DNA of 36,954 nucleotides, from positions 1-36,954 of the forward strand of contig JAFYCM010000097.1 of the NCBI GenBank assembly GCA_017539645.1, given 5' to 3'. Shown here in pieces: positions 8,396 to 36,954 of the stretch; positions within the stretch are counted from its first letter, which is position 1, and each line of letters starts with the position of its first letter. Source of the DNA: Bacteroidales bacterium. Lineage in GTDB: Bacteria; Bacteroidota; Bacteroidia; Bacteroidales; Marinilabiliaceae. Below the pieces are notes generated by a model. The model worked only from the letters and a program-made list of their open reading frames with translations. It was not told the origin of the DNA and ran no database searches. Position numbers and translations under genes: made by a program.

Positions 8396-10742
<2,347 letters not shown>

Positions 10743-19660: not shown

Positions 19661-21013
19661 TTATTCTGCAGTTGTAGTAGCTGCTGCGCTTGTTGCGCCA
19701 AGGAGTTTGCCATATTTATCGGCAATAGCTTGCTGAACTTTGATTTCGCTCTTGATTTGTGCAAGAACAGTAGTGTAGTATGAAATAAGTGTTGCGTTGT
19801 CGGTAACGTTGTTAGCTGCGTTTTCGATATTGCTATTGTAGTTAGCAATGCTGTTCTTGTAGTTGTAGATATTCTCCTGTGCGTTGATAACGAGGTTTTC
19901 TATCGACATGCCAGACAAAGCATCGTATGCTGCGTATACGCTGTATGCATACTGATACTCTTGATATGAAGTGTAAACGTCTTTAGCATAGGTCTCCAAA
20001 GTTGCCAAAAGCTTGGTGTAGTCATCGAGGCTCTTAGTGATGGTCTCTACTACAGCTTTTGCTTTGGTCTGAATCTCTTTGTAGTCTTCCAAAGAGCTCT
20101 CATAATAGTCAAGACCGCGGTTTACTCTGTTTGTAAGAGTATCGATGTTAGCCTGAAGAGCTGCGAGGTAATCGGTAGCGTCGAATGAGCCATAGTAGCT
20201 ATAGTTAATGAAAGAATTGTCGTTGTAGAGCAATTTAGCTTCCGTCAACTCAAAGGCATCATACAAATTGTAGTTGTTGTAAGATGCTCCATCGCGATAG
20301 CTATCGTAGAAACGATAGTCGCTGCCGTTGGTGAACACCTCTTTCACTGCGAGAGCGTAATCGCTATTGTAGAGGTCGTGGTTTACTGGAATGTAGTACG
20401 AAGGAGAACTGTAGTTATACTCAGAACCAACAAGAACTTTGATTTGTGAGCTAATTGCATCTTTGATCCAGTAGTAGGTACCGCTGTAGTTCAGGTTGTA
20501 GTTAGCGTCTACAACTTTCTGCCATGCTGCTACATATTCAGCATACTCTTTTTTGTATTCAATCTGAGCATTAAGAGTCTCTTCGCTGAGTTCGTCAGAT
20601 GTAATGACATTCTCTTTAGCCTTCTCGTATACAGCAATCTTAGCCTCTTCGAGTTTTATCTGAGCCTCGTTGAATGCGATACGATTCTGGTTCCACTCGG
20701 TGATAGCAGTTTTGACATTCTCGTAATAAGCGGTGCTCGTTTTAGCATCGTCGAGCTGAAGTTGAATATCTTTTGCGTCAGCTTCGAGAGATTTTACTGA
20801 ACTTACAGCATCGTTGTAGATAGATCTATAGGTACGATCGAGGGATGCTTGTGAGTTTGCAAGGCTTACTTCGCTCTGAGCAAGTTCTACTTTTTCTTTT
20901 GCGAGTTCTACTTCGCGAATAGCTTTTACTTCGTCAGATTCTTCATCGTCAACACATGACACCATTGATCCGCACACAAGTGCAGAGATCATAAACATTG
21001 AATAAAATTTCAT
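19661..21013 (-). CDS. Coiled-coil lipoprotein of unknown function
   Basis: A 450-residue protein with a lipoprotein leader ending GSMVSC (Cys20) followed by the acidic stretch VDDEESDE, which in Bacteroidetes can act as a surface-export signal. Residues ~30-170 and ~270-440 are heptad-rich coiled coils (e.g. 'VELAKEKVELAQSEVSLANSQASL'). Between them (about 175-270) lies a Tyr/Asn/Ser-rich segment with few charges ('SGTYYWIKDA', 'YDSYRDGASYNNYNLY'). It could fold as an antiparallel hairpin with a globular tip. It has a good promoter 92 bases upstream and shares a transcript with the beta-barrel gene. I recognise no family. Confidence 0.75.
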   Translation of the reverse strand: MKFYSMFMISALVCGSMVSCVDDEESDEVKAIREVELAKEKVELAQSEVSLANSQASLDRTYRSIYNDAVSSVKSLEADAKDIQLQLDDAKTSTAYYENVKTAITEWNQNRIAFNEAQIKLEEAKIAVYEKAKENVITSDELSEETLNAQIEYKKEYAEYVAAWQKVVDANYNLNYSGTYYWIKDAISSQIKVLVGSEYNYSSPSYYIPVNHDLYNSDYALAVKEVFTNGSDYRFYDSYRDGASYNNYNLYDAFELTEAKLLYNDNSFINYSYYGSFDATDYLAALQANIDTLTNRVNRGLDYYESSLEDYKEIQTKAKAVVETITKSLDDYTKLLATLETYAKDVYTSYQEYQYAYSVYAAYDALSGMSIENLVINAQENIYNYKNSIANYNSNIENAANNVTDNATLISYYTTVLAQIKSEIKVQQAIADKYGKLLGATSAAATTTAE

Positions 21014-21134: not shown

Positions 21135-21251
21135 TACATTTTTATTCACTTCCTCTAAATATTAGCCTTTTTCACAAAAAAAAACAATTCTTTACACTTT
21201 TGTGTGGAATATTCTTCTGCAGATCTTTTGAGCATAGAGAGTAAAACGTAA

Positions 21252-21288
21252 AGAGTAGTGTAGATAGTTATTGTATCTACACTACTCT
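21252..21288 (-). terminator. Perfect 15-bp hairpin after the glycan operon
   Basis: Arms AGAGTAGTGTAGATA (21252-21266) and TATCTACACTACTCT (21274-21288) pair perfectly around a 7-nt loop. The minus-strand continuation is TTTACGTTTTACT, only moderately U-rich. It lies 33 bases after the stop of the last gene of the 21321-31446 operon and probably ends or stabilises that transcript. Confidence 0.55.
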
Positions 21289-21320
21289 CTATTCTCTACG
21301 CTTTGCGCTTTATCTGCGCT

Positions 21321-23936
21321 CTATTTCATAAACAACCAATCCACTTCGTCGCCAGCGCCATTGAGGCCAGCATCGCGGGGCTTGAGTTGAGTTTGGGTGA
21401 AGCCTGCTATCATAATTATGCCTTTGGGCAAGTTTATCACGTGACGACCTGCACCAAGGTGATAGGCATGAATATTCACGATAGGCATTCCTTTGATATT
21501 TATTGCATTAGAGATGACGGGCTCAGCCTGACCATATTCGTTGCCCGTAGCATCGACTTCGAGTTTGGGCGGTGCGGCAAATTTAGGGTCGTCGTCGTTG
21601 AAGAAGCCAACGAGCATCATCACCGAATCGGCGCTCTCGAACTCTATGGTAGTGCCTACAATGCGAGTGGTGTCGCGGTTGAGAATCATTGCTTGCATAC
21701 CATCAATCTCGGGAGCTATGGCATCGATAATCTCGCCACGATTCTCTTCAAAGAGTTGTTCGCCTTTGCTTAGCGCATGAGTTTTGAAAGGCGTGATGAG
21801 TTTCACCGCGTAGTTTTGCGCTTTTGCAACGTCGAGTTGAGCATCATCGCTATTATGATTTTCGAGCTTCTGCAAATTGTCGCGTAGGCTTTCAGTCTCT
21901 TGCATATATACGCTTGTCATCTCTTTCCACGTCTTGAAGTTGCCGTTGTCGCCACCCACAGGAATGCGGCGTTGCGAGGTCTGCATACTATTAGCGTAGT
22001 GGTATGTGGGCTCTGTGAGCTCCACAAGCACATTCCAGCACGAATCGCTCTTTTCCATTAGCGGCAGTGCATTGTGTAGATATGATGTCTGTTTGCTCCA
22101 TTTGTATTTGAGCGCCTCGTTGGCTGCCAAAACTTTGTATCGAAAGGCCTCAGCAAAAGCCTTGTAGCAGTTCATATCGTTGGCGAGACGAGCGAACTCA
22201 TCATTATTATTATGAATATTCTTAGCAGCTCGCTCGATAGCAGCAACGGCTTTCGCGCCATGCTCAATGCACTGGTCTACAATGTCGAGCGGAAGTTCAC
22301 CTTCGTGAGGCTCGTGCTTCCATTCGCGTTCGGCATATTCAATAAGTTTCTCGCCTTTAGGTCCACAACTCTCATAAAATCCTGGATAAATAGTGTACTT
22401 ATAAGGGTTGACAAGTTGGGTAATCTTCATGCCAAGGAGCAGACATTGGCGGTTTCCCTCGGTAATGCCAAAACGGCGGATAAGTTTAGGCGCTATCTCG
22501 CCACTCTCGTCGTAAGCCTCAATTATGTAACGAGCAGTGAGCGTGTCGGTGCCATAATATTCAGCAATTCTGCGTTGCCAATAAATATCGTCGTCGGTGC
22601 GGTGGCAGTTCCATGCATAACGACCCCAGACATCGTACCACATCCAGTCGCGCTCTATCTGAAGTTGACGCGAGCCATCGGCAAGTTTGTCGGCTGTGTA
22701 GGGCCAATCCCAGTAGGAAGCTTGAGGATAGAGGTGTAAGCCCTTAGCGCCATGAACGCTGTGCATTGCCTCTACAGCTTTGCGCGCAAAGGCAGGCGAA
22801 GACCAACGCCACGGCTCGAGGTTGGCAAGGATATGTACGTTGTCGATATGTATAGGCGCTACGTTGCTCAGTTGGCGGTGAGTCTCGCCCCAAGGACCGC
22901 CGGGCTCATATGTAGTGAGACTCTCGCCAGTGTATTTCGACATGGTGTAGATATTCGGATAGAGAGGCAGCGCCGCCTCGAGCACGCGCGGACAGTCGGT
23001 GTCGTGGGCGCGAAGAATGATAGGCGGCGTGTCGGTGCGACCCGAAGCAGCAAGTCCGTCTTTGATGCCGGGAATAATGGTCTCGGTCATCCACGTGACA
23101 TCGTCGTCGATGGTGGCCATAGCCTCGCCAAGGCAGACGAGGAAACCAACATTAGGATATTGCTTCACAAACTCGGCAATACTCTTGCGCGTGTAGTCGC
23201 TAATCTCAGGCGTGATTGGACGATTGCGATCTTGCGTACTTATGCCATAGTGGTCGGCAAAGGGCTTGGACACAATGATGTTGTAGAACATCTGTATCAC
23301 GCGAATGCCACGACGCTCAGCCTCGGCAGTGAGGAATGCAAACATCTCTTGGTTGAGCTTCATTGTAGCATCGTCGACCTCAGGTGCGAAAGGATATTCG
23401 GGCACTTTTACGAGCGATGCAAACGGGTGGCCGTTCCATAAGTATACGGTATTCATATTAGCCGAAGCCAAGAGGTCTAAATATTTACACCACAAATCCT
23501 TATCGTAGAACCAAGGGAAGTTTTCGGGTGTATATGGATATTCATAGACCTTATGTCCGGGCAGATAGACCGTCTTCTGCAAACCAACGCAGGCACCACG
23601 CATCTTCATCTGTGGAGCATCGCTCTCGTTTCGCACGCTGTCGAGTGTGCCGTATATCAAAGCAATCTCTTTCAGTCGGTTTGCTGCATAGATAGCACCG
23701 GCGCCATCGTTGCCAATGATGCGAATGTTATCACCTTCGCGCTCGATGGAGTAACCTTCGGCAGGCTCTTGTGGCTCTACGGCGATTGTTATTCGGAAAT
23801 CACCCTTTTGCGACTTCAAGAGTTCGGCTGCATATTCTGTTTGTGGCGTTGGGGTTGCCACTTCCACTTCTACAGTGCTGCACGACGTTGCCAATATAGC
23901 TATGGACAACGCAGCAAGCATTTTTATTCTAATCAT
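21321..23936 (-). CDS. Putative alpha-glucuronidase-like glycoside hydrolase lipoprotein
   Basis: An 871-residue lipoprotein (Cys19 in LATSC). Residues ~35-100 look like the GH20-N/GH67-N alpha/beta domain ('YSIEREGDNIRIIGNDGAGAIYAANRLKEIA'). A TIM barrel follows (~112-480): 'MRGACVGLQ', 'LLASANMNTVYLWNGHP', 'AERRGIRVIQMFYNIIVS', 'NVGFLVCLGEAM', 'PPIILRAHDTD'. Glu271 (CLGEA), at the end of a strand, is a candidate catalytic acid. A helical region (~500-720) and a C-terminal beta-domain complete it. The layout recalls alpha-glucuronidases and DUF4838/GH163-type enzymes, but I cannot assign a CAZy family. Its start overlaps the GH78 stop by 4 bases, so it is translationally coupled and likely acts on the same glycan. 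Confidence 0.6.
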   Translation of the reverse strand: MIRIKMLAALSIAILATSCSTVEVEVATPTPQTEYAAELLKSQKGDFRITIAVEPQEPAEGYSIEREGDNIRIIGNDGAGAIYAANRLKEIALIYGTLDSVRNESDAPQMKMRGACVGLQKTVYLPGHKVYEYPYTPENFPWFYDKDLWCKYLDLLASANMNTVYLWNGHPFASLVKVPEYPFAPEVDDATMKLNQEMFAFLTAEAERRGIRVIQMFYNIIVSKPFADHYGISTQDRNRPITPEISDYTRKSIAEFVKQYPNVGFLVCLGEAMATIDDDVTWMTETIIPGIKDGLAASGRTDTPPIILRAHDTDCPRVLEAALPLYPNIYTMSKYTGESLTTYEPGGPWGETHRQLSNVAPIHIDNVHILANLEPWRWSSPAFARKAVEAMHSVHGAKGLHLYPQASYWDWPYTADKLADGSRQLQIERDWMWYDVWGRYAWNCHRTDDDIYWQRRIAEYYGTDTLTARYIIEAYDESGEIAPKLIRRFGITEGNRQCLLLGMKITQLVNPYKYTIYPGFYESCGPKGEKLIEYAEREWKHEPHEGELPLDIVDQCIEHGAKAVAAIERAAKNIHNNNDEFARLANDMNCYKAFAEAFRYKVLAANEALKYKWSKQTSYLHNALPLMEKSDSCWNVLVELTEPTYHYANSMQTSQRRIPVGGDNGNFKTWKEMTSVYMQETESLRDNLQKLENHNSDDAQLDVAKAQNYAVKLITPFKTHALSKGEQLFEENRGEIIDAIAPEIDGMQAMILNRDTTRIVGTTIEFESADSVMMLVGFFNDDDPKFAAPPKLEVDATGNEYGQAEPVISNAINIKGMPIVNIHAYHLGAGRHVINLPKGIIMIAGFTQTQLKPRDAGLNGAGDEVDWLFMK

Positions 23937-26056
23937 AATCTTACACTTATCTCTTTTCCTGATGGTATTTCTACTCGTTTCTTACCTACTATGAGTACGC
24001 CTTTTCCGCCATCGCTCTTCACGGTGACGCGCTTTTTGTTCATACGTATATGAATCTTACCAAATGGCGTAGGCACATCGCCCTCAATCCATTTCAGTCC
24101 GCCAAGCGATGGGCGAACTTCATACTCGTCGTAGCCAGGCTTTGTTGGCTGCACGCCAAGATAGTAGCGTCCGAGCAAATAGATAGGACTCGCACCCCAA
24201 GCGTGGCAAAGGCTCTTGCCATAAGGACGGCCATACATAGCCAAATGCTGCGCACCACTGTCGGTTGGGTTGTATTTTTCCCAGAATGTGGTTGCACCTT
24301 CGCTCAGCATGCCGCCCCAATAGGCTTTCATCTCGCGCATCACTTGCTCTTGTGCACCAAGTTGGCAGAGTGCCTCCATCTCGTAGAATCGCATGTAGGG
24401 CGTGGTGATCTTGAGCACCTCATCGTTGAGAAGCACACTCTTTTCTACCTCCTTTTTCTGTTCGTCGCTCAGATAGTCGAACATGATGGCGAAGATGTTG
24501 CTGAATTTGAACACTTCGTCGCTCTGCTTGCCGTCGATGCGGTTGTGAACGATGGCTTTCTTGGTGTCGTCCCAGAAATATGGCAGAAGTTTGCTCTTCA
24601 CGTCGGCTGCACGCGCTGCAATTTTTTGTTCGTTTTCGCTATCGCCAACGAGAGCCGCCACTTTGGCTGTGGCCTCAAGCGCACGACAGTATAGTATTTG
24701 CTCGAAGCTGAGTTGACCGTGCTTGTCCATTGGCTTGTCGGCCCAATCTACAAACACCCAGTCGCCTGCCAAACCTTGCACAAGGCCATCGGCATCGGTG
24801 CGACTCTCTACGTAGTCGACATAGCTAAGCATCTTGGGATAAATCTGCGCAAGAAACTGAGCATCACCACTATACATATAATAGTCATAAATAGATATGA
24901 GCCAGTAGAAGGTGTAGTCCATAATGGTATTTATATGGCTACTTATGGGCTCTTTACCAGCGAGAAGCCACATGGTGCGCTTCACCTCTTCGTTGTCGTT
25001 GAAGAGGTAGTAGTTCATCAGATAGCTCTGCGAAGCATCGCCGCTCCACACCCAACGGTCGCGTTTTATGCCGTCGATGAAGAACTCTCGCGTGGTGAGT
25101 TGCAGCGTGTATTGTCCAACTTCCCACATGCGGTTGACGAGTTCGTCGTTGCAGCGGAATGTGCCAACGGCCGTCTCGGGCATATATTCATAGTCCATCG
25201 ATACGTTAGCCACATCTACGTTGCCTTCGGTCTTTATATATACATATCGGAAAGCTTTACTGTTGCTAAATACGTATATATTATCGAGTTGCACCGTTTC
25301 GTTGGTAGCAAGGTTCGTAACCATACCATCGGCCACTTGCAGATAGTCGAGCGTTTCGCAATGCTCTTCGTCGCGTGCCTCTTCGGGGCTTTCGCCGTAG
25401 AACACTCCAATTTTTCCGTTGCCTATTATCCCGTGCAATTTCACGTAGCCAAAGGTCTCGCGGCCAAAGTCGTAGAGGTTGCCATCTTTGCTAACTGCTA
25501 TTTGTGCATCGCGAACAAGGCTAAACTGCGAAGGGAGCGATAGAGCATCGTTGAAATTCCAGCTGCCAGCCTGCATATAGGTTGTGGTAGAGGTGTCGGA
25601 AGCTTTGCCGCTCTCGTCTATCCACTCTTTGTCTTCGGACGTCACTTTCCAGTGGCTGCCCGACTTTATGGTAGCGCCACTCACAAAGAGTGCGGGCGGT
25701 GTGACTTGGTTGTGCACTTTGATATTTATCTTGTGCTGACCCGCAGGAATGGTGATTTTCTGCGGCATGCCAAACTGAAGTTTGCCGTCAATCTTTATGT
25801 TGAAAGTTCCTTCGGCGGCTATCGTAAGTTCCTCGGCAGCAGCGAGGTCAACTTGCGTAGAGAATTCCACCGTCACGAAATGGCTCTCCTGACGCCAAAA
25901 TGGTGGAAAGAATGCACCACGCTCCGTGCGACGATTGTTCATCTTGTTGCCGAGCCAAATCTCGTAGTCGCCTGGATACCATATCCATGTCTGCGCCGAA
26001 GCTATTCCTGTGCCTATATACATAGCTATCAATAACGCTAAAGTCTTTATTCTCAT
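23933..26056 (-). CDS. GH78 alpha-L-rhamnosidase
   Basis: A 707-residue secreted protein (signal peptide about 1-21, GIASA|QT). Beta-sandwich domains occupy ~22-290 ('AFRYVYIKTEGNVDVANVSMDYEYMPETAVGTF'). The (alpha/alpha)6 barrel (~295-610) opens with 'RCNDELVNRMWEVGQYTLQLTTREFFIDGIKRDRWVWSGD' at 301-340, the GH78 substrate/acid motif. A final C-terminal beta domain ends 'VRPSLGGLKWIEGDVPTPFGKIHI'. It should release terminal alpha-L-rhamnose. Between GH141-like and glucuronidase-like genes, it matches BT1001 of B. theta by family and position. The start is 121 bases after the GH141-like gene. Confidence 0.9.
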   Translation of the reverse strand: MRIKTLALLIAMYIGTGIASAQTWIWYPGDYEIWLGNKMNNRRTERGAFFPPFWRQESHFVTVEFSTQVDLAAAEELTIAAEGTFNIKIDGKLQFGMPQKITIPAGQHKINIKVHNQVTPPALFVSGATIKSGSHWKVTSEDKEWIDESGKASDTSTTTYMQAGSWNFNDALSLPSQFSLVRDAQIAVSKDGNLYDFGRETFGYVKLHGIIGNGKIGVFYGESPEEARDEEHCETLDYLQVADGMVTNLATNETVQLDNIYVFSNSKAFRYVYIKTEGNVDVANVSMDYEYMPETAVGTFRCNDELVNRMWEVGQYTLQLTTREFFIDGIKRDRWVWSGDASQSYLMNYYLFNDNEEVKRTMWLLAGKEPISSHINTIMDYTFYWLISIYDYYMYSGDAQFLAQIYPKMLSYVDYVESRTDADGLVQGLAGDWVFVDWADKPMDKHGQLSFEQILYCRALEATAKVAALVGDSENEQKIAARAADVKSKLLPYFWDDTKKAIVHNRIDGKQSDEVFKFSNIFAIMFDYLSDEQKKEVEKSVLLNDEVLKITTPYMRFYEMEALCQLGAQEQVMREMKAYWGGMLSEGATTFWEKYNPTDSGAQHLAMYGRPYGKSLCHAWGASPIYLLGRYYLGVQPTKPGYDEYEVRPSLGGLKWIEGDVPTPFGKIHIRMNKKRVTVKSDGGKGVLIVGKKRVEIPSGKEISVRL

Positions 26057-26177
26057 TAAGTTGTAAGTAATAAGTTTATACGTTCTAAGTATTAAGTTGA
26101 AAGTTCAGAGTTCAAAGTTTAGGGTTGAAAGTTCAAAGTTGAAAGTTCAAGGTTCATGAATTTTCAACTTTCAATTT
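26057..26177. repeat. Spacer with GTTGAAAGTTC repeats and AT-rich hairpin
   Basis: The spacer between GH141-like and GH78 genes holds several copies of AAGTTGAAAGTTC / AAAGTTCAAAG (26089-26155), then the inverse (TTCAACTTTCAATTTTCAATT, 26161-26181). Together they can fold into a long AT-rich hairpin that overlaps the GH141-like stop codon. In a co-transcribed mRNA this could act as a processing or attenuation site. Confidence 0.55.
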
Positions 26178-27938
26178 TCAATTCTCAACTCCCGCAAGCG
26201 CTTTGATGCTATCCGCCACCATCGGACCGTTGTTTTCCCACGTGTTGGTTGGACCATTGCTGTTCTTTAGGAATTTCTCCGAGGGAGTCCAATTGTTGCG
26301 CATAGTTATGCCGTTGGACCCTTCGTCGGTGTAGAGGTAGAACCAGTGGTTGGGGTCGTGAGCGTAGGGCGGAGTGTATATGTCGCGAACAGTGTTCTCT
26401 TGAATGAAGCTGTGCGGCTGACTGCCAAGCGTATATATGCCAGCCACATCGTACATGTGCTTAGCATAATGATGTATCAAGTTGCGTTCTACGCGGTTGT
26501 TGCCCATCACGCCAATCTGCTGATTCCAGCCCCAGCCCATACTTATGCCAGTGTATGAAACTTCAGATATTTCATTGTTACGTATGATAATATTACGTAC
26601 GTAGCCTGCTCCAATGCCCACCGTGCCCCAATCTTCATTGGTTACGTTGGTGATGATGTTGTTGGCTATCAAGCAACCCGAGCAAGCAATGCGGCGGTCC
26701 GTTGGGTCGTAGGGTTGATGTGCCTCGTGACCAGCAGGACCGAAGGTGCCAACCAAGATGCCCGTGCCGCCACAATCCTCAACAAGCGAGCGCGACACTT
26801 CGCCGTCAACTACATTCTCGTTGAAGTCTATTCCCGTTGAAGCGCAATGCGTTACAACACAATTTTGTATACGTACATTGTTGGCATGGTTTACCGTCAC
26901 AGCTGCCGACGGGCGACCAACCCAACCATGATTGTCGAGTTTGTGGTCGCCATTGGGACGCGAAATCTGCGGGCGTATCTTGTAAGCCTCCGTCATATAC
27001 ATTCCAGCCTGTAGCGGATTGTGTCCGTAGAAACTTGGACGAAGCCACGTGGCATAACTAAAACTTACGCCATCGATAGTTACGTTGCTAACAGGATTGT
27101 CCAGCGTGCCAAGCACCTCCATAAGTGTCTCGAGGGCAGGCACTTCCACGTCGGCAGAGTTCATGTTCTCGCCATCGCGCGGAATGTAGTATACACGCTC
27201 GGCCTTCTCGTCGAGCCACCATTCGCCCTTCTCGTCGAGGAGTGCTTTGGCATTCGCGAGATAGAAAGCCGAGTTGTGCCCATCGGAAGTTACCATTGGC
27301 TGCGGCCAAGGCTGGCGAAACTCAATGTGGCTCTCGGGCTGATGGAACGTGAGTGCGGCACTGTCGCCAAGCATCTTTACGCCCTTGATGCGCAAGTTGG
27401 CGGTGCACCACATCTGATGGATAACCATCTCCACGCCATCGCTCTTGGCTATCTTCTTCACGGCAGCTACTGGAACGTATATCTCCTCTTTCTGCTTGTT
27501 GAGCGAGAGTATGCGATACATATCGTCGAAGTTCTGCACATCGCGAGCGCGGTCTGCTTTTTGGCCATTCACCCACATCTGGCGGAAGAGCAGCGGACGA
27601 CCATTGAAACGTGGCACTTGCGCCCACCACATCTTGCCTTCGCGGTGCCAATTCTCTATACGTATGCCACCACTAATTTCGGCTTTGCTATCGCCTACTA
27701 TAGTCACGCCATTGTCCTCGGGACGAATGACTACAGGCGCATTCAATCGGTAGATGCCCGACTTGAGGCGAAGCGTAAACTTGTCGGCATCGCCATGCAG
27801 ACGCATGATGCGCGCCTTCTGCAGCGCCTCTTCTATGGTGTATGCTCCTGGTTCAACATCAATTTCTACCGCTTGTGCCGACGCCGACACAGCAGCATAC
27901 ATACCCATAAGTATGATTAATATGCTCTTGGCACCCAT
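26178..27938 (-). CDS. GH141-like right-handed beta-helix glycosidase
   Basis: A 586-residue secreted protein (signal MGAKSILIILMGMYAAVSASA). It opens with 'YTIEEALQKARIMRLHGDADKFTLRLKSGIYRLNAPVVI', then 'GGIRIENWHREGKMWWAQVP...RPLLFRQMWVNGQKADRAR', a segment typical of GH141 and related beta-helix enzymes. The helix rungs run from about 270 to 540 with repeated Asn ladders ('NNVRIQNCVVTHCASTGIDFNENV', 'CLIANNIITNVT', 'NIIIRNNEISEVSYTGISMG'). Known GH141 members are alpha-L-fucosidase (BT1002, RG-II) and xylanase. Its position between GH127 and GH78 genes favours the fucosidase role. The start overlaps the GH127 3' end by 22 bases. Assignment to GH141 is by pattern and context. Confidence 0.72.
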   Translation of the reverse strand: MGAKSILIILMGMYAAVSASAQAVEIDVEPGAYTIEEALQKARIMRLHGDADKFTLRLKSGIYRLNAPVVIRPEDNGVTIVGDSKAEISGGIRIENWHREGKMWWAQVPRFNGRPLLFRQMWVNGQKADRARDVQNFDDMYRILSLNKQKEEIYVPVAAVKKIAKSDGVEMVIHQMWCTANLRIKGVKMLGDSAALTFHQPESHIEFRQPWPQPMVTSDGHNSAFYLANAKALLDEKGEWWLDEKAERVYYIPRDGENMNSADVEVPALETLMEVLGTLDNPVSNVTIDGVSFSYATWLRPSFYGHNPLQAGMYMTEAYKIRPQISRPNGDHKLDNHGWVGRPSAAVTVNHANNVRIQNCVVTHCASTGIDFNENVVDGEVSRSLVEDCGGTGILVGTFGPAGHEAHQPYDPTDRRIACSGCLIANNIITNVTNEDWGTVGIGAGYVRNIIIRNNEISEVSYTGISMGWGWNQQIGVMGNNRVERNLIHHYAKHMYDVAGIYTLGSQPHSFIQENTVRDIYTPPYAHDPNHWFYLYTDEGSNGITMRNNWTPSEKFLKNSNGPTNTWENNGPMVADSIKALAGVEN

Positions 27939-29992
27939 ACGGTCATCTCTCCTTTGTCCCTATTGCCCCAAGCATAATAGGGAATGAAACGAACTTTTTT
28001 CTTGTTGCTCTCGGCCGTTGCTTTGCGATACAGAACACCATTCCAATTCTTCTCGCTGCGGCAAACGGCGTCGCAAGCCAATGCCACAACGCGGCTGCCA
28101 GCAATAGTCATCTCTTCGGGCGTAAACTTGGTATCTATACCAATAGCAATATTGTCGATGTCTTCGCCATCAATATCCTGACTTTCGAGGCAGTAGACCA
28201 CTGGTCCGCGGCGCACAGCCACCTGACCGCGACACTCCTCAGCAAGCGGATTTGCCTCTACAATCTCGGCATTCATAGGCATGGTGAATTCTATCTTGTC
28301 ACCTTTGCGCCACGTGCGTTTTATATTTACATAACTACCAGCAGCAATGTTGCCGCCGATAGCCTCGCCATTCACAGCCACTGTAGCACCTTCGCACCAC
28401 TGCGGAATGCGCAAGCTAAGCGTAAACTCCTTTTTGCCCTTGAGCTTGTTTATAGTTATGCCCACATTGCCGTCCCATGGGTAGTCGCTTGCCTGCGCAA
28501 GTTCTATGTCGCCAACGCCAGCAAGGTTGGTAGCGAAGGTGTTTTGTCCATACATATTTACGTAGATATGATTCTCGGCAATGCTGTAGGCGTAATCTTG
28601 TGTTTCGCAGAGCGTGCGCAGCGTGTTTGGCGGACAGCAGAAACAACTGATATATTCCGTGCGTTCCTTCGGCCAACGGAGTGTGTAGGGCAGTTCGTCG
28701 GAGAGACGGAGCGGATTGGTGTAGAAATAGCGCTTGCCGTCGAGCGAGATGCCGCTAAGGATGCTGTTGTAGTAGCACGTCTCCATGACATCTACATACT
28801 TAGCATCGGCGGTAGCTTCGAACATACGCCAGTTGAAGAGCATGTTACCAATGTTGGCGCAAGTCTCGTTGTGCGCCGTAGATTGCGGCAACTGGTATGG
28901 GCGACCAAAGCTCTGGTGCACCTTCTGAATGCTGTCGGGCGTGTAGTTGGTGCCATCGGGCGAAGTGCCATCGTAGAGCGCGCCGCAACCGCCAGTGATG
29001 TACATACGACGCGTCACAAGGTCGTTCCAGATGGAGGTGAGGTTCTTCATGAGTTGTTCCTCGCCTGTCTCGAGATACAAATCGGCAACGCCAGCATAGA
29101 GATACGTAGCGCGCACGGCATGACCAAGCACGGTGTATTGCTCGCGGAATGGCACACGGTCTTGGTTGTCGTCGGTGCCATTCTCCACCATGCCGCGAAT
29201 ATCTATGAAGTGTTGCGCGAGGTCTAAGTATTTCTTATCGCCCGTCTCGCGATACATCTCGGCAATGGCCATATAGTGCGACGGACAGATGGCGTTGCGA
29301 GCCAATTCGGCCGACGATGTCTCGTAGAAATGGAGAAGGAAGTCGGCAGCCTTCACAGCGCAGTTGAAGAGCGTAGTCTTGCCCGTTGCGCGTTTGTGCA
29401 TGATGCCAGCAGTGATGAGGTGACCGAGGTTATACGTCTCGAAATTCAAGCGGTTGCCAAAAGCACCTTCGTCGGCAGTGCCAGTGGCTGTACCAATGAC
29501 GGTTTCGTCTTTAGCTTCCGTCTTGGCTGCTAATTTCTTATTCAGTTCGGCAATAATTACAGGCGTATGTATGTATCCATCGGCGCGCTGACTCTTAACT
29601 ACGCAGCCAATGAATCGGTCCATAATCTTATCGAGTTCGGGGTCGTGGTTGATGGCGTAGACCGAAGCGACCGCCTCGAGCCATTTATACATATCGCCAT
29701 CGTGGAATGGCGGGCCTTGGTGTGTACCCTCTTTCTCGCCCGAAGCAATGAGGAAATTCTCGAATCCGTGGGCCTCGTCGGTTTGCCACGTCTGCCACAT
29801 GCTCTGCACCGAAGTTTCGCTAAACACGCCAAAGCGTTCGCCCCAGAAACCGCCAGTCCATTTCACGGCATTTATTGGGGCTGCTGTCATCTTGGCATGT
29901 TGACTTTGACGAGTATTAGTTATGCCACTTTGAGTTTGTGCACTCGCTGCCATTGCGGCAAGTGCAAGCACCATACTTATGATTCGTTTCAT
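27917..29992 (-). CDS. GH127 family glycosidase (beta-L-arabinofuranosidase / aceric acid hydrolase type)
   Basis: A 691-residue secreted protein (signal MKRIISMVLALAAMAASA). The (alpha/alpha)6 barrel carries the GH127 zinc/nucleophile set: Glu376 and Cys378 in HNETCAN, and Cys452-Cys453 in CFCCPPN, matching (from memory) Glu338, Cys340, Cys417 and Cys418 of Bifidobacterium HypBA1. At the place of the HypBA1 acid/base Glu322, sixteen residues before the first Glu, this protein has Gln360 (VHQSF). That may mark the subgroup that acts on substrates other than arabinofuranose, such as BT1003 (aceric acid hydrolase). Met at 29992 is chosen because it gives a clean signal peptide; the longer frame to 30034 adds 14 charged residues and overlaps the upstream gene. 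Confidence 0.88.
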   Translation of the reverse strand: MKRIISMVLALAAMAASAQTQSGITNTRQSQHAKMTAAPINAVKWTGGFWGERFGVFSETSVQSMWQTWQTDEAHGFENFLIASGEKEGTHQGPPFHDGDMYKWLEAVASVYAINHDPELDKIMDRFIGCVVKSQRADGYIHTPVIIAELNKKLAAKTEAKDETVIGTATGTADEGAFGNRLNFETYNLGHLITAGIMHKRATGKTTLFNCAVKAADFLLHFYETSSAELARNAICPSHYMAIAEMYRETGDKKYLDLAQHFIDIRGMVENGTDDNQDRVPFREQYTVLGHAVRATYLYAGVADLYLETGEEQLMKNLTSIWNDLVTRRMYITGGCGALYDGTSPDGTNYTPDSIQKVHQSFGRPYQLPQSTAHNETCANIGNMLFNWRMFEATADAKYVDVMETCYYNSILSGISLDGKRYFYTNPLRLSDELPYTLRWPKERTEYISCFCCPPNTLRTLCETQDYAYSIAENHIYVNMYGQNTFATNLAGVGDIELAQASDYPWDGNVGITINKLKGKKEFTLSLRIPQWCEGATVAVNGEAIGGNIAAGSYVNIKRTWRKGDKIEFTMPMNAEIVEANPLAEECRGQVAVRRGPVVYCLESQDIDGEDIDNIAIGIDTKFTPEEMTIAGSRVVALACDAVCRSEKNWNGVLYRKATAESNKKKVRFIPYYAWGNRDKGEMTVWVPRAY

Positions 29993-29994
29993 AA

Positions 29995-31446
29995 TTATAT
30001 CGTACCTCCTCTTGCTTTGATGCGTTCGTACCAAGCTTCACGCTCCTTCACAAGGTCGTAGCCACGACCACTGAGGTAATTATTTATGCGGCCTTTGTAT
30101 TTACCGAAAACCTCGTGTTTCTTGTTTGAACTCTCTGCGTCGATGGCAAGTTCGCGAGCTTCGATGAGCCACGCCATAATTTGCGCTTTCTCCTCGTCGG
30201 TGAGCGTAGGTATCATATCGCAATGTGCATCGAAAGTGACGTGTAGCACATTGAAGGTCATAACATCTTTTACGGTCTCTATCTCGTGAGGCTTCAGATA
30301 CATAGATAGTTTAGCATCGTAGCCAAAGTGACTTCTGTAGAGTTTCGAGTCGGCAGTGGCTTGCGCAAGTTTCTTGTCTTTCTTCTTCAGCGTGTCGCGC
30401 TCGGCATAAATATCGTTAAGCTCAAAGTAGCGGTTGGCTACAATATTCAGCACGTTGCGGCCCTTAGGTTGGTAAGTGATGTTTAGCTTGTCGGTAACTT
30501 TTTGAGCACGTTTAAGAATGGCGTTTACATATTGCGGATCGCGTCCCGTGCTGTCGAGTGCCACTTCGGGAGCGGCCAAAGTGCCAAGGAGGCTCTTCAG
30601 GTAATGCACGTTGTTGGAATAGTTATAACGAACGTCCTTAACTTTCGATACATCGCGGCTGCGCTCTACGAAGAACCAGCCACTCCATTTGAGATCTTTG
30701 AGCGTATTTATGATAGCTACAGCGTCGATGGCTTTGTCGTCGCGCAAGCAAACGCTGTCGATGCTCGACGAGTGGAAAGCTGCAATGTTTTTAGCACCAA
30801 GTTTTTTTATTTCGGCGCAGATGTCGCGATTGTTTTCCACCGCAGTTTGCCATTTGTAGAAAATACGTATGCCGTCGCTCTTAATCTCCTTGAGCAACTT
30901 GAGGTTGCCTGCTGCATCGAGAGGAGTGTCGATGCCTATGATTTTGCCGCGTTGTTTGGCCATCTCGCCCACTTCGTGCAAGCGTTTAACTATGGTTTTG
31001 CGAAGAGCTTTGTCGTCGGTCCAGCCATTGCCGCAGCCGCCGAGCGGAAGGAATGCTACCTTCACGCCACCCATCTTATCCATGGTATTCAGACAATCTT
31101 CGATGAGCTCTTTGTAGGTCTCTTTGGTGGCAAAGCTCTGGCCGTAGAAACCACTCATAGCCATAGCGCCAATTTCAATGTTCAGACTGTCGGCAGCGCG
31201 ATTGAACGCTACAACGGAAGCTTCGTCGTCGCGGAGTTTGTTTTTGAATTGGGGATTGCTGCCGAGACCGCCCATATCCATCTCTACGCCATCGGCACCA
31301 ATTTGCTTTGCAAGGGAAATCTCGCCAAGTTTTTGGCGTTTTAGTATCATCCAGTCGCATACACCAACCTTTATGGTCTGTGCCTCGACGCCTGTAAATA
31401 TCAGTAGCACAAGGGCTACAAACAGGTTTTTCTTGTTGTTTTTCAT
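29995..31446 (-). CDS. Secreted xylose-isomerase-like TIM barrel fused to DUF3826
   Basis: A 483-residue protein with a signal peptide (MKNNKKNLFVALVLLIFTGVEA). Residues ~25-290 match the sugar phosphate isomerase/epimerase TIM barrel (PF01261): 'QIGADGVEMDMGG', 'GKIIGIDTPLDA', 'NIAAFHSSSIDS', 'SGWFFVERSRD'. Glu55, Asp173, His225 and Glu261 are candidate metal ligands. Residues ~300-480 match DUF3826: 'VANRYFELNDIY', 'PHEIETVKDVMTFNVLHVTFDAHCDMIPTLTDEEKAQI', 'KYKGRINNYLSGRGYDL'. The two domains are usually separate genes, so this is a fusion. It is the first gene of the operon, 2 bases before the GH127 start. A 29-residue longer start at 31533 was rejected because it hides the signal peptide and runs over the promoter-like element. 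Confidence 0.82.
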   Translation of the reverse strand: MKNNKKNLFVALVLLIFTGVEAQTIKVGVCDWMILKRQKLGEISLAKQIGADGVEMDMGGLGSNPQFKNKLRDDEASVVAFNRAADSLNIEIGAMAMSGFYGQSFATKETYKELIEDCLNTMDKMGGVKVAFLPLGGCGNGWTDDKALRKTIVKRLHEVGEMAKQRGKIIGIDTPLDAAGNLKLLKEIKSDGIRIFYKWQTAVENNRDICAEIKKLGAKNIAAFHSSSIDSVCLRDDKAIDAVAIINTLKDLKWSGWFFVERSRDVSKVKDVRYNYSNNVHYLKSLLGTLAAPEVALDSTGRDPQYVNAILKRAQKVTDKLNITYQPKGRNVLNIVANRYFELNDIYAERDTLKKKDKKLAQATADSKLYRSHFGYDAKLSMYLKPHEIETVKDVMTFNVLHVTFDAHCDMIPTLTDEEKAQIMAWLIEARELAIDAESSNKKHEVFGKYKGRINNYLSGRGYDLVKEREAWYERIKARGGTI

Positions 31447-31511: not shown

Positions 31512-31519
31512 CAAATATA
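31512..31519 (-). promoter_or_regulatory. -7 element upstream of the glycan operon
   Basis: Reads TATATTTG on the minus strand, an exact TAnnTTTG match, 65 bases upstream of the first operon ATG. A TTTG lies only 11 bases further upstream (31531-31534), too close for a normal -33 element, so the assignment is tentative. Confidence 0.4.
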
Positions 31520-33512: not shown

Positions 33513-35501
33513 TTATTTCACAACGCGTCCAGTTACATCGTACTTCACACCATCGACTTCGATAATCAATATGCCGTTTTCGATGTACTTCTTAGCATGC
33601 TGTTTTTCTGCATCAACGCCGTTTACTGCGGTAACAGCGCCGCGAGATACTGTTACGGTCAAATCGGCCGTAGTAGCCTTGTAGTTGGTGCTTCCAGCGT
33701 ATGTAGCAGGGAACGTTTTGTCGCCAATCTCATTGCCAACGTTTGTAGAAGCATCTACCCAAGCCCAACCTTCGGGAAGTTCAACCTCGGCAAGCGTTTG
33801 GTCTTGTGTGGCAACAAGGTTCTCTGGCTCTTCTGGGTCGGCTTTGGTTATTTCAAAGCTCTTATCTACTTCGCCGCTATAGTTGCCCATACCTACGACA
33901 GTATGTATATATGAATCAGCATCGACGATTGACATCTTTGGTCCCTTTACATAGTAATCGACATCTTCGCTAAGCGTTGTCGCGCCATCGGTTACGACTA
34001 CTACTGGTGTGAGACTCTCGCCTGTGTACGTCTGCGATGCTATGTTGGCTACGTTGGCTGCTGTGAGTTCTTTCGGATTAATGGTGAAAGTCTTGTCGGC
34101 ATAAGTATTTTCGTATTTACCAAGGCCGGTTATCGCTATTGTGTAGTTGCCTGCGTTTATGTAGCCATTCTCGGAAAGCGTTGCAGTGTAATCTTCGTTT
34201 AGGGTGAGAGTGGTTTCGCCATCTTTCACCACTACGCTTTGCGCCTCACCATTGTAGGTGGCAGCCGCTATTGTTACACTTGGCGTAGCTATCGATGGAT
34301 ATACGATGCTTTCGCTCGTTAGATACGCTTCACCACCATTTTGATACTCTCCATCCGATACAAAATCGTATTCATTATATTCTTGATTCCAATACGTTAC
34401 TCCACCGATGGTTACAGAGCCACATGCCGATTTTGATGCTACACTTCTTCCTATGCAATCAAGAGCACCCGTACCTTTTACAGCTTGGAGCTTAGCAATG
34501 TCCGCTGTGATAGTGATAGATTTACACCCTTCATAGCTACCATATTCTTCATCCGCAACTCCACAACCAATGGCCGCAGCACCTTCACCGCCTGTGGCTT
34601 CGATTGTGCCGCCCGAAATAGTTATGTTTCCACAGACAGAGTTACTATAGAAGCAATATCCACAACCTATGCCAGCGGCACCAGAGCCACCTGTAGCTTT
34701 GATGTGACCACCTGAAATAGTGATATTGCCACATTCGCCATTGGTGCCACCAACACCAATGCCCGCACCACCAGTAGAGCCATAGGATCCACCACCAGTA
34801 GCAATGATGGTGCCTCCAGTAATTGTAATGTTGCTAATAATTGAAATGTCGTCACTATCGTAGTCGTACTGTACATGCCCTTGGTTTCCGCAGCCAATGC
34901 CAGCGGATTCTTCTCCTCCTATGGCTGTAATAGTGCCACCATTGATAGTTATACTGCCATAAGAGCTATATCCGCCACCACCTATAGCAGCGGCTTGGTA
35001 TCCACCCGTAGCATTTATTACGCCGCCATTGATTGTGATATTGCCGCAATCTATATGTCTACCACCACCAATGCCAGCTCCGAATGATTGTTCATATTGG
35101 TTTACATTACTACTTGCAACGAGTATTCCTGTGTTGCCCTCAATGGTTAGCGTGTAGCCTTCTGCCACGTAAATGCCAGGATAAGTCTCATGGCCACCCT
35201 TAATGGTATTAGTAGTGCCATCGGCAAGCGTAATAGTGGCATTGCCAAGACATGTGAGGCCTGCCCATTTGTGGTCTTCGTCATAAGTTGTAGCCGCAAT
35301 GGTAACGTTGCTAAGTGTCACCGAAGCGCCGTCGGCAATCGACACATGAGTGTTGGCACCACCAGTGCCAGTAAGCACATCGCCATCGGCAAGTGTAATA
35401 GCTTCTGTCTCTTCAGTGAGAGTGACAACATTTTCCGCTGTTGCCACAGCGCAGGGCAGCAACAATGCGAAACAAAAAGAAAGTAAATTGATTTTTTTCA
35501 T
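33513..35501 (-). CDS. Secreted modular repeat protein with MBG-like domains and conserved C-terminal tail
   Basis: A 662-residue protein with a signal peptide (MKKINLLSFCFALLLPCAVATA). Residues ~130-360 hold about six glycine-rich repeats of the form 'GNITINGGTITATGG..AAGIGCG', most of them with paired Cys, which should build a beta-helix or beta-roll like the pectate-binding Cthe_2159 type. Residues ~395-560 hold two MBG/YDG-type Ig-like modules ('YNGEAQSVVV...INAGNYTIAITGLGKYE', 'YTGESLTPVVV...GMGNYSGEVDKSFEI'). Residues ~565-625 form another Ig-like module ('TLAEVELPEGWAW'). The last ~37 residues end 'KKYIENGILIIEVDGVKYDVTGRVVK', nearly the same as in the next gene and similar to tails common in Bacteroidales surface proteins. 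Exact function unknown; adhesion or glycan binding is likely. Confidence 0.75.
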   Translation of the reverse strand: MKKINLLSFCFALLLPCAVATAENVVTLTEETEAITLADGDVLTGTGGANTHVSIADGASVTLSNVTIAATTYDEDHKWAGLTCLGNATITLADGTTNTIKGGHETYPGIYVAEGYTLTIEGNTGILVASSNVNQYEQSFGAGIGGGRHIDCGNITINGGVINATGGYQAAAIGGGGYSSYGSITINGGTITAIGGEESAGIGCGNQGHVQYDYDSDDISIISNITITGGTIIATGGGSYGSTGGAGIGVGGTNGECGNITISGGHIKATGGSGAAGIGCGYCFYSNSVCGNITISGGTIEATGGEGAAAIGCGVADEEYGSYEGCKSITITADIAKLQAVKGTGALDCIGRSVASKSACGSVTIGGVTYWNQEYNEYDFVSDGEYQNGGEAYLTSESIVYPSIATPSVTIAAATYNGEAQSVVVKDGETTLTLNEDYTATLSENGYINAGNYTIAITGLGKYENTYADKTFTINPKELTAANVANIASQTYTGESLTPVVVVTDGATTLSEDVDYYVKGPKMSIVDADSYIHTVVGMGNYSGEVDKSFEITKADPEEPENLVATQDQTLAEVELPEGWAWVDASTNVGNEIGDKTFPATYAGSTNYKATTADLTVTVSRGAVTAVNGVDAEKQHAKKYIENGILIIEVDGVKYDVTGRVVK

Positions 35502-35530
35502 AACGCGTTTATAATTAATAGTTAATGATA

Positions 35531-35560
35531 GTCTCTTCTTTCAAAAGAGACCCAAAATTA
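35531..35560 (-). promoter_or_regulatory. -7 element and leader hairpin of the 33513-35501 gene
   Basis: TAATTTTG on the minus strand (35553-35560) matches TAnnTTTG, 52 bases upstream of the ATG. Just downstream, 35531-35551 forms a 7-bp hairpin (GTCTCTT / AAGAGAC) in the predicted leader. No -33 TTG at the right distance. Confidence 0.45.
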
Positions 35561-35664
35561 GCCGAAGCGAAATTAGTGTTTATTTCGAATGGGTAGTATA
35601 AATACTACGCAAAAAAACTGACATTATATTTATCGAAATGCACAAATATCAGCTATTTATGTAC

Positions 35665-35695
35665 AAAAATGGCGACCACATTGCTGCAGTCGCCA
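35665..35695 (-). terminator. Terminator of the 35748 gene
   Basis: Minus-strand stem GGCGAC / GTCGCC (35689-35694 with 35671-35676) followed by ATTTTTG. It is the same hairpin, with one loop base changed, as at 33440-33470. Confidence 0.7.
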
Positions 35696-35713
35696 TACTT
35701 ATGACTTATTCGA

Positions 35714-35733
35714 CAATGGGGCATGCCCCATTG
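35714..35733. repeat. 20-nt perfect palindrome, second copy
   Basis: Identical to the palindrome at 33491-33510, 14 bases after the stop codon of the second surface-protein gene. Its conservation in the same place after both genes shows that the 3' flank was duplicated with the coding end. Confidence 0.85.
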
Positions 35734-35747
35734 CTACTTACCACTTA

Positions 35748-36954
35748 TTACTTCACCACGCGTCCCGTTACATCGTACTTCACGCCGTTGACTTCGATAA
35801 TCAACTTGCCGTTTTCGATGTACTTCTTAGCATGCTGTTTTTCTGTTTCAACTTCGTTTACAGTGGTAACTGTGCCAGGGAGCATTGTGCCTACAGCCGT
35901 ACGCGTGTCGGTAGTGCCACAACCATGGTCGCACTCAGCTGTTTCGGTGCCATCAGCAAGTTTAGTTGCGTCGTTGTTGTAAACATAGTTTGTAAAGGCG
36001 TGACCAAGTGCAGCGCCTTCTGCCACAATTTGGTTTGTTGCAGTGCAGCCTTCGCGTGTACAAGATGCTGTCTTATGACCATCTTCGGTGCAAGTTTGGT
36101 CGCCATCGAGAATATATTCGCCCCAAGCGTGACCGAGCGCAGTACCTTCAGCTACAACTTGGTTGGTCGCGGTGCAGCCTTCGCGCGTGCAAGATGCTGT
36201 CTTATGACCATCTTCGGTGCAGGTTTGGTCGCCATCGAGAATATATTCGCCCCAAGCGTGACCGAGAGGTTCGCCAACCGATGTTTGTGCAACAACTGTT
36301 GTGTGGCATGCCTCGCAGTGTGAACCTTCCGTGATGGCTGCTTCAGTGCAAGTAGCTGCAATAGCTTCATCGGTAACCACCGACTTGTGCTCTACAACCA
36401 CAGTCATATTGCCCGTAGCATTTTCGTAATTATTCTCATCTGGGTTGTAGATGAGCGCTACGGTATTATCACCAATTGCCAAGGTTTGTTCTGCATTCAC
36501 GAGGCGATAACCATCAGAAAGAGTTACGTTAGCCAAGGTTTGTTGGCAGTTGATTGTCTGCTTTTCTGGGGCTGTGAATGTTGGTGTAGCTTTGTTGATT
36601 TTGAAGGTCTTTTCAACACTGCCAAGCGAGGCATAATCACCTTTGAATGTTACCGTCACTTTCGCTGTGCCAACATTAACATTATCGGTATATGAATACT
36701 CATAATCAGTACCCTTGGTAAGATTCTGCGAACCTGCCATAACTAGCGGCTCAGGCTTGATTTCGCTGCCTGTGTAGGTCTGGTCGGGCACGACATCCAT
36801 CTGACCGGCGGTTTTCAGAATAGATACATTCCACCTGCCGTTGCCTGCGTCGGTCATTGTGATGTCGTAGAAGCCTGCCGTTGCATCATCACTAAGTGCG
36901 AAATTAGTACCGACCATCATAAATGTACCCGTGCCGCCAGAATACGGAATAGAT
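35748..36954 (-). CDS. Secreted repeat protein with Cys-rich 43-residue repeats (5' end outside window)
   Basis: The frame stays open to the window edge (the codons before the first Met at 36920 read SIPYSGGTGTF), so this is the C-terminal ~400 residues of a longer protein. It has an MBG-type Ig-like module ('YTGSEIKPEPLVMAGSQNLTKGTDYEYSYTDNVNVGTAKVTVTFKGDY'), then 'TLANVTLSDGYRL', then Cys-rich repeats 'LGHAWGEYILDGDQTCTEDGHKTASCTREGCTATNQVVAEG'. There are two full copies with a 129-bp DNA period, plus degenerate ones on both sides. The last 37 residues match the tail of the 33513-35501 protein. It is probably a surface or secreted adhesin-like protein; no catalytic domain is visible in the part present. 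Confidence 0.75.
   Translation of the reverse strand, partial: SIPYSGGTGTFMMVGTNFALSDDATAGFYDITMTDAGNGRWNVSILKTAGQMDVVPDQTYTGSEIKPEPLVMAGSQNLTKGTDYEYSYTDNVNVGTAKVTVTFKGDYASLGSVEKTFKINKATPTFTAPEKQTINCQQTLANVTLSDGYRLVNAEQTLAIGDNTVALIYNPDENNYENATGNMTVVVEHKSVVTDEAIAATCTEAAITEGSHCEACHTTVVAQTSVGEPLGHAWGEYILDGDQTCTEDGHKTASCTREGCTATNQVVAEGTALGHAWGEYILDGDQTCTEDGHKTASCTREGCTATNQIVAEGAALGHAFTNYVYNNDATKLADGTETAECDHGCGTTDTRTAVGTMLPGTVTTVNEVETEKQHAKKYIENGKLIIEVNGVKYDVTGRVVK

Follow-up and report, generated by a model that had tools for sequence, protein, structure and literature searches.

The stretch of DNA considered here (the window, 36,954 nucleotides) corresponds to positions 1-36954 of contig C79 in the assembly G000 (GCA_017539645.1; 3.44 Mb in 101 contigs) of a gut-type Bacteroidales bacterium from the Marinilabiliaceae, and carries an operon of five minus-strand genes between positions 21321 and 31446. 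This operon very probably represents the part of a rhamnogalacturonan-II (RG-II) degradation system that acts at the base of side chains A and B, together with an accessory protein bearing a TIM barrel; the outer parts of the glycan would be handled by two gene clusters on contigs C69 and C55, from both of which the operon would since have been separated. As such, it adds a further member to the known RG-II system, unusual in that its arrangement is broken up. The five genes are co-directional and, with ATG starts read from the sequence, follow one another with spacings of 2, -22, 121 and -4 bases, exactly as an earlier description of this stretch (the original prediction) had stated, and they are presumably co-transcribed. 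Gene 1 (29995-31446, ATG start; the mechanical open reading frame (ORF) opens at TTG 31533) encodes a protein of 483 amino acids with a signal-peptide-like N-terminus, a xylose-isomerase-like TIM barrel (about 30586-31380) and a DUF3826 domain (about 30013-30525). It is followed by genes for a GH127 member, predicted to be an aceric acid hydrolase homologous to BT1003 (27917-29992, ATG start; ORF opening at TTG 30034), for a GH141 member, the predicted alpha-L-fucosidase of side chain A homologous to BT1002 (26178-27938), for a GH78-type alpha-L-rhamnosidase homologous to BT1001 and predicted to cut the rhamnose-alpha1,3-apiose (Rha-alpha1,3-Api) linkage (23933-26056), and for a putative GH138 alpha-D-galacturonidase of 871 amino acids homologous to BT0997 (21321-23936).

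The activities of the four hydrolases are predicted from characterised homologues. Above the Pfam cut-offs were found the three domains of GH127, the GH141 insertion domain (PF21231, GH141_M) with a beta-helix, and the GH78-type domains (PF21209, PF17389 and PF17390), which upholds the three family assignments made earlier. In searches of the sequences of solved structures, the GH127 protein matches 5mqo over its full length (1083 bits), the GH141 protein matches 5mqp, entitled 'BT_1002', over nearly its full length (712 bits), and so does the GH78 protein with 3cih (1056 bits), so that the proposed likeness to BT1003, BT1002 and BT1001 holds as well. Besides, the GH127 protein passes the NCBIfam equivalog for aceric acid hydrolase (NF049879; 1012.5 bits for a cut-off of 950), and its motifs HNETCAN and SCFCCPPN, to which we assume a role in GH127, are intact as in 5mqo, with the cysteines and the glutamate common to both. 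As for the GH78 protein, its NCBIfam match is weak (27 bits versus a cut-off of 1800), and it is 63% identical to the Bacteroides faecis gene at the BT1001 position. The profile PF05592, tried as a marker for this GH78, does not match it and only marks two other GH78 proteins on C69 and C55, so that the family label alone would mislead. The 871-amino-acid protein was one of the two proteins that had been called less studied. Its Pfam match to Glyco_hydro_20b (26.2 bits, cut-off 26.1) was dropped, since it matches the 'BPa0997' structures 6hze, 6hzf and 6hzg over nearly its full length (about 1114 bits) and passes the alpha-d-galacturonidase equivalog NF049878 (1316.5 bits, cut-off 1300), which identifies this hitherto unnamed hydrolase as GH138; its N-terminus is lipoprotein-like by eye. 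The term remains apt for the other one, gene 1, in which Pfam recognises AP_endonuc_2 and DUF3826.

The link with the Bacteroides thetaiotaomicron RG-II locus was read via B. faecis MAJ27, in which the genes at the BT1003 and BT1001 positions are 98.4% identical to 5mqo over 193 aligned residues and 90.5% identical to 3cih over 243 residues, respectively, and the gene at the corresponding GH141 position is 85.2% identical to 5mqp over 189 residues. From these fragment identities, 5mqo belongs with the BT1003 position and 3cih with the BT1001 position, the BT numbers of the B. faecis gene positions being those that we take to apply. The predicted family order GH127-GH141-GH78 is indeed found there, followed by GH138 and GH137-GH2, and the domains are 46-67% identical to those of the window. 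Several features set the two systems apart: in B. faecis GH137-GH2 belongs to the same locus, whereas in G000 it lies with the rest on other contigs, and the B. faecis TIM and DUF3826 proteins are encoded by separate genes about 10 kb apart, whereas they form a single gene leading the operon in the window.

In the passages of PMC7939467 that deal with these enzymes, BT1001 is described as cutting Rha-alpha1,3-Api and BT1002 as an alpha-L-fucosidase, while on chain A oligosaccharides BT0997 takes the alpha1,2-linked galacturonic acid (GalA) and BT0992 the beta1,3-linked one; BT1003 appears as an aceric acid hydrolase in a passage of PMC10850190. The label of 2-O-methyl-fucosidase that the original prediction had given to BT1002 is thus wrong, because that activity is attributed in part of PMC12282258 to the GH139 enzyme BT0984. 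By homology, on the chain A rhamnose GH138 would remove the alpha1,2-GalA and GH141 the fucosyl branch linked alpha1,4, both in the periplasm, a location predicted from the N-termini. Aceric acid is attached to the base rhamnose of chain B, from which GH127 would remove it, again in the periplasm, and GH78 would then cut the exposed Rha-alpha1,3-apiose. The four enzymes would in this way form a set that frees the base rhamnoses of chains A and B of three residues before removing the rhamnose itself. The second GalA of chain A would be left to a BT0992-type beta-galacturonidase among the GH2 proteins of C69, and gene 1 would supply a secreted, RG-II-linked accessory, a TIM barrel of the sugar-isomerase fold joined to DUF3826, which probably binds or converts an acidic sugar from RG-II.

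Beyond the operon, the genome encodes GH137, GH139, GH140, GH142/GH143, GH106, GH33 and a BT1017-type esterase. Contig C69 carries GH137-GH2 (BT0996-like), two further GH2, GH106, a SASA esterase, GH139, GH78, an arabinofuranosidase-GH143-GH142 fusion, a BT1017-like protein and GH95. For C55, the part read (its first 40 kb) holds DUF4992, SusC, SusD, GH140, GH78-GH33 (the GH33 being a BNR domain behind GH78), GH2, a pectate lyase and DUF6298. The C69 GH137-GH2 protein reaches 1797 bits against NF049877, just below the cut-off of 1800, and the GH139 protein (DUF5703) reaches 656 bits against 9hyq, an entry deposited by the GH139 paper according to part of its text (PMC12282258). The fusion (L098:3118-7257; 1622 bits against 5mqr) has a BT1021-like arabinofuranosidase domain ahead of a BT1020-like GH143-GH142, whereas the corresponding B. 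faecis genes are separate and adjacent. The BT1017-like protein (C69:28160-29458) is 61% identical to that of B. faecis, and with 432 amino acids instead of the 654 at the B. faecis BT1017 position it is probably devoid of DUF3826; in a profile search, the sole PF12875 match of the genome was the TIM protein. The view of a genome poor in other RG-II enzymes was dropped after GH137-GH2 had been found on C69, GH140 on C55 and GH106 on both C69 and C13. Contig C13 (GH106, a GH88-family gene and a rhamnogalacturonan-I (RG-I) lyase gene) was itself set aside as an RG-II cluster, as it looks like an RG-I locus. The earlier statement that SusC/SusD and most other RG-II enzymes are lacking is therefore valid for this contig but not for the genome, where both are found on C69/C55, nor for the same-genus genome G055, where they lie on the operon's own contig. 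Of 71 genomes searched in the family, 5 carry GH138 (E up to 1e-100), and these are also the 5 that carry GH137 (E up to 1e-40). As a side observation, DUF6298 proteins of about 1000 amino acids (L100:4397-7453) recur beside RG-II operons (the L006 cluster of 13 loci) and on C55.

Two same-genus genomes illustrate how this arrangement varies. In G055 (locus L003), the operon proteins are 95-99% identical to those of the window and the flanking glycosyltransferase is the same, but all three RG-II clusters, spread over three contigs in G000, lie within 95 kb (38-132.5 kb) of a single 134.6-kb contig, C11: the C69 set at 37.9-67.0 kb, GH97 and a weakly pectinesterase-like gene at 67.5-73.3 kb, the operon at 85.6-95.8 kb and, on the opposite strand, the C55 set at 112.5-132.5 kb, with SusC/SusD about 30-35 kb past the operon. 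The G055 operon, GH97 and the GH137 cluster all point the same way; the window operon, by contrast, runs opposite to GH97. In G057, these genes are found at four or more separate sites, with TIM-DUF3826 on C77, GH127-GH141 at L021, GH78-GH138 on C23 and GH137-GH2 on C92, a pattern suggesting that the RG-II locus has dispersed step by step inside this single genus.

The gene order is also kept more widely. GH141 was used to fetch 80 loci, and the clustering yielded its ORF in 76 of them, the other 4 not being clustered. The gene directly upstream can be seen in 71 (5 loci end before it), and in 58 of these it is GH127, so that this order is not accidental. GH138 is found in 44 loci, 6 of which end before the next gene, and is directly followed by GH137-GH2 of the BT0996 type in 33 of the other 38, with L003 among the five that differ. 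In the 53 loci where the interval from GH141 to GH78 is visible, it is empty in 25, holds only an MFS transporter in 17, DHDPS plus SSF with or without other genes in 6, and something else in 5. Most Prevotella/Xylanibacter-type operons (L004-L015, L073 and others) read TIM-DUF3826-GH127-GH141-...-GH78-GH138, with identities of 54-74% (L007 shows no TIM, and L012 and L013 end before GH78), and many of them, unlike the window, have MFS or DHDPS plus SSF genes between GH141 and GH78 and run on into GH137-GH2. These DHDPS-family and SSF symporter genes, or the MFS transporter gene, present inside Prevotella-type operons (L014, L017, L018, L028 and others), are candidates for the uptake and cleavage of the released sugars. 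RG-II use outside Bacteroides is not new, since a passage of a review (PMC12959208) names GH137, GH138, GH139 and GH141 in the RG-II degradome of the gut species Prevotella intestinalis; that passage makes no mention of operon structure, TIM or DUF3826.

Regarding the origin of the operon, the GH138 tree, a sparse sample with long end branches, places the window, L003 and G057 together (97/95) inside a Prevotellaceae-type clade, and groups two other family members with Dysgonomonas. In the same line, the GH138 protein is 64-69% identical to Prevotella-type loci versus 51% to the own-family genomes G051 and G031, whereas MutS is 62-64% identical within the family versus 58-61% to others. These comparisons make a horizontal origin of the operon's GH138 likely. 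One record of the tree, L052 (JAMPHR010000001.1), is labelled Paenibacillus, carries a GH127-GH141-GH78-GH138-GH137 locus and groups with Bacteroides/Phocaeicola; it is probably mislabelled or a contaminated assembly.

Several observations weigh against the assignment of the operon to RG-II as part of such a system. A scan of 20 window proteins (at least 3 smaller ORFs lay outside it) gave no SusC, SusD or regulator family, so that co-regulation with C69 and C55 is only assumed; the GH141 protein matches no NCBIfam family and shares only about 54% identity with its syntenic counterpart in B. faecis; and the genes around the operon are arranged otherwise than in G055, in contigs that come from a draft assembly. 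The window contig may be misassembled. Moreover, the 75 kb of B. faecis sequence surrounding its RG-II region contain 40 ORFs of at least 130 amino acids, a large number of them not RG-II genes; on comparison with the fetched G000 contigs, 21 had a counterpart (20 on C79, C69 or C55 and one, at 25%, on C13) and 19 had none, including the 445-amino-acid protein at the BT1018 (GH28) position; the counterpart of the BT1011-position protein is that 25% match on C13. GH106, SASA and GH139 fall outside this comparison because the B. faecis contig starts at a GH2 gene, and GH28 genes (PF00295), of whatever specificity, lie on four other contigs of the genome. The separation from SusC/SusD in this contig and the moderate identity of GH141 to characterised relatives could also be read as a recruitment of the operon, with loss of its SusC/SusD link, to another glycan bearing rhamnose, fucose and uronic acids, such as an RG-I side chain or a bacterial exopolysaccharide. 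This is very improbable, given that the GH138 and aceric acid hydrolase equivalog cut-offs are both passed, that the genome holds most of the other RG-II families, and that, in PMC12168206, Kdo and Dha are described as exclusive to RG-II in plants and aceric acid as identified in RG-II work. Hardly more credible is a decaying remnant, in which the system would be breaking up in the genus and no longer work as a whole: GH138 (E 1e-100) is missing in 12 of the 15 genus genomes searched (8 of those 12 being less than 90% complete), and the genes lie on three contigs in G000 and in at least four separate places in G057, but all five ORFs are full length and nearly identical to those of G055, and the GH127 motifs, with the cysteines and glutamate of 5mqo, are intact. 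The reading as an RG-II operon is supported by the homologues, the equivalog cut-offs and the RG-II families elsewhere in the genome (GH106, GH137, GH139, GH140, GH142 and GH143 among those that the original prediction had proposed to look for); neither a placement of the enzymes in unrelated clades nor a lack of RG-II neighbours was encountered.

The least understood part of the operon is gene 1, a little-studied sugar-isomerase-like protein for which Kdo or another acidic sugar might be the ligand or the substrate. Its TIM protein is RG-II-linked and turned up only alongside RG-II machinery in the genomes searched. Among 392 genomes of the order, for which a completeness of at least 90% was asked, 11 have TIM (E up to 1e-40) and 15 have GH138 (E up to 1e-100), the 11 being a subset of the 15 and both sets including G000 and G055; the Fisher test gives p = 1.9e-18 under an assumption of independent genomes, which they are not. 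Four of the 15 GH138 genomes (G086, G180, G381 and G411) have no TIM at E 1e-40, and TIM is present in 7 of the 7 RG-II-carrying genomes tried. In B. faecis (L125:9488-10381) it stands beside DUF4992-SusC-SusD of the RG-II region, and in Phocaeicola vulgatus and Bacteroides cellulosilyticus upstream of SusC-SusD-pectate lyase-DUF3826. Its partners vary, being DUF3826 in the Prevotella-type loci and the window, and GH33 in the Dysgonomonas-type loci. More precisely, among the 30 clustered loci with TIM, 15 have an ORF of at least 440 amino acids, counted as DUF3826-fused, 11 have a separate DUF3826 gene coming after TIM and 4 are without DUF3826 (L078, L079, L081 and L082, of which L078 and L081 are cut at the locus edge). 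A TIM fused behind GH33 occurs in six fetched loci, as GH78-GH33-TIM in L080, L136 and L139, as GH33-TIM in L137 and L138, and as a cut ORF in L081; Pfam BNR and AP_endonuc_2 were confirmed in the four of them that were scanned (L080, L136-L138). In addition, TIM follows GH78-GH33 in L141, adjoins a DHDPS gene in L142, and L079 and L082 show the order GH33, BT1017-like, TIM, GH141. BT1017-type domains joined to xylose-isomerase-like TIM barrels are mentioned in a passage of PMC7939467. No other text linking such barrels with RG-II was found in the literature searched, a search that did not cover the 2017 Nature RG-II paper and is thus no proof of novelty.

In terms of structure, a TIM fold is found in a predicted model of gene 1, which has no sequence-level match in the PDB at E 0.01; D-tagatose/D-psicose 3-epimerase-type barrels are 12-16% identical to it. 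Two features distinguish it from that type, namely the signal-peptide-like N-terminus and a strand-6 metal-ligand aspartate that is never present. With regard to the metal quartet E-D-H-E that we take to lie at the ends of strands 5-8 in the tagatose-3-epimerase type, the window has D173, K198, H225 and E261 (positions placed by predicted strands), an incomplete metal site. Across the 46 TIM segments compared (44 distinct), K, N or S always takes the place of the strand-6 aspartate, and 3 segments lack the strand-5 acid; all 46 retain His225, Glu261 and Asp57, and 45 retain Glu55. Lys36, Arg37, Lys39, Arg262 and Arg264 are invariant, the 31-38 motif partly by construction as it was used to collect the segments. 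The candidacy of gene 1 as an ordinary metal-dependent epimerase is weakened by the strand-6 position.

Two roles can be weighed on this basis. A pseudoenzyme, serving as a carbohydrate-binding or scaffolding module rather than as a catalyst, is close to an even chance: the losses at strands 5 and 6 point that way within the ligand pattern that we assume, as do the titles of the DUF3826 structures 3kdw and 3g6i (putative sugar-binding protein, part of a putative carbohydrate-binding complex). On the other hand, the near-complete conservation of His225, Glu261, Asp57 and Glu55 suggests an active site, and, according to PMC7939467, BT1022 and the DUF3826 of BT1017 gave no RG-II binding by calorimetry. 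Somewhat less probable, at about one chance in three, is that TIM works in the periplasm as an enzyme on a 3-deoxy-ulosonic acid that RG-II breakdown releases (Kdo, possibly Dha). Such an action on Kdo or a related acid before uptake is proposed on two grounds: TIM travels with GH33, and an SSF symporter and a DHDPS-family gene are additional components of some loci. Sialic acid uptake includes a mutarotase step, to which this role may be likened, and the rhamnosidase-GH33 protein would, as we assume, belong to chain C, at Rha-Kdo. The six GH33 fusions, the DHDPS-family neighbour in L142, the DHDPS and SSF genes between GH141 and GH78 in 6 of 53 loci, and the invariant lysines and arginines, which would suit an acid ligand, are consistent with it, as is the structural relation of Kdo and Dha to sialic acid given in part of PMC12168206. 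Conversely, the window TIM is fused to DUF3826 and not to GH33, and 4 of the 15 GH138 genomes are without TIM at the threshold used. Further, TIM lies directly upstream of GH141 in several loci, which makes the GH141 product an alternative, and the release of Kdo by the GH33 domain, on which this role leans, is itself presumed. A pure binding role is at least as likely as an action on Kdo. The fuller proposal, of an overlooked, RG-II-linked secreted TIM without the standard metal site, shuffled between partners and performing a periplasmic Kdo or 3-deoxy-ulosonic acid step that would feed SSF uptake and a DHDPS-family aldolase, is doubtful, if less so than the alternatives considered for the operon as a whole.

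The surroundings of the operon hold a few further features. A terminator-like stem-loop of 18 pairs (21249-21291, minus strand; a pattern match) lies about 30 bases past the last stop at 21321, and a TAnnTTTG element upstream of gene 1 (31512-31519, minus strand) resembles what we take to be the Bacteroidota -7 box, with no TTTG box at the usual spacing. Both kinds of site are at chance level in the region, with 18 promoter-like sites versus 15.8 +/- 3.9 in shuffles and 13 terminator-like sites versus 12.6 +/- 4.2. Rfam and tRNA scans of the window gave no matches. On the plus strand lie a GH97 gene (8586-10742), which in G055 stands between the GH137..GH95 cluster and the operon, and a gene (11038-13350) whose protein has a weak pectinesterase-like stretch, no Pfam family, and 19.9 bits against NCBIfam NF041896 (cut-off 700); the latter has the same neighbourhood in G055. 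Housekeeping-type genes separate GH97 from the operon in the window. Beside the operon, 33513-36954 encodes large surface-type proteins with nearly identical C-terminal tails, with Beta_helix_3 in one and a MiiA motif match below the cut-off, and related DNA is found on the same side in G055. At 19661-21013, a 450-amino-acid protein with no Pfam or NCBIfam match, coiled-coil-like and lipoprotein-like by eye, adjoins an OmpA-like porin gene.

RG-II, a pectin, is among the most complex plant glycans, and the handling of its rarest sugars after release is little described in the literature searched. In this context, the operon shows which enzymes stay together on the break-up of a large locus, namely those acting on the rhamnose-apiose base. 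The TIM-DUF3826/GH33-TIM protein is what merits an experiment: its co-occurrence with GH138 and its fusion to GH33 make it a candidate for a missing RG-II step and a possible sequence marker of RG-II users. If the Kdo proposal were true, TIM would be a plant-pectin counterpart of the sialic acid mutarotase, and its reaction a new one for the sugar-isomerase fold.

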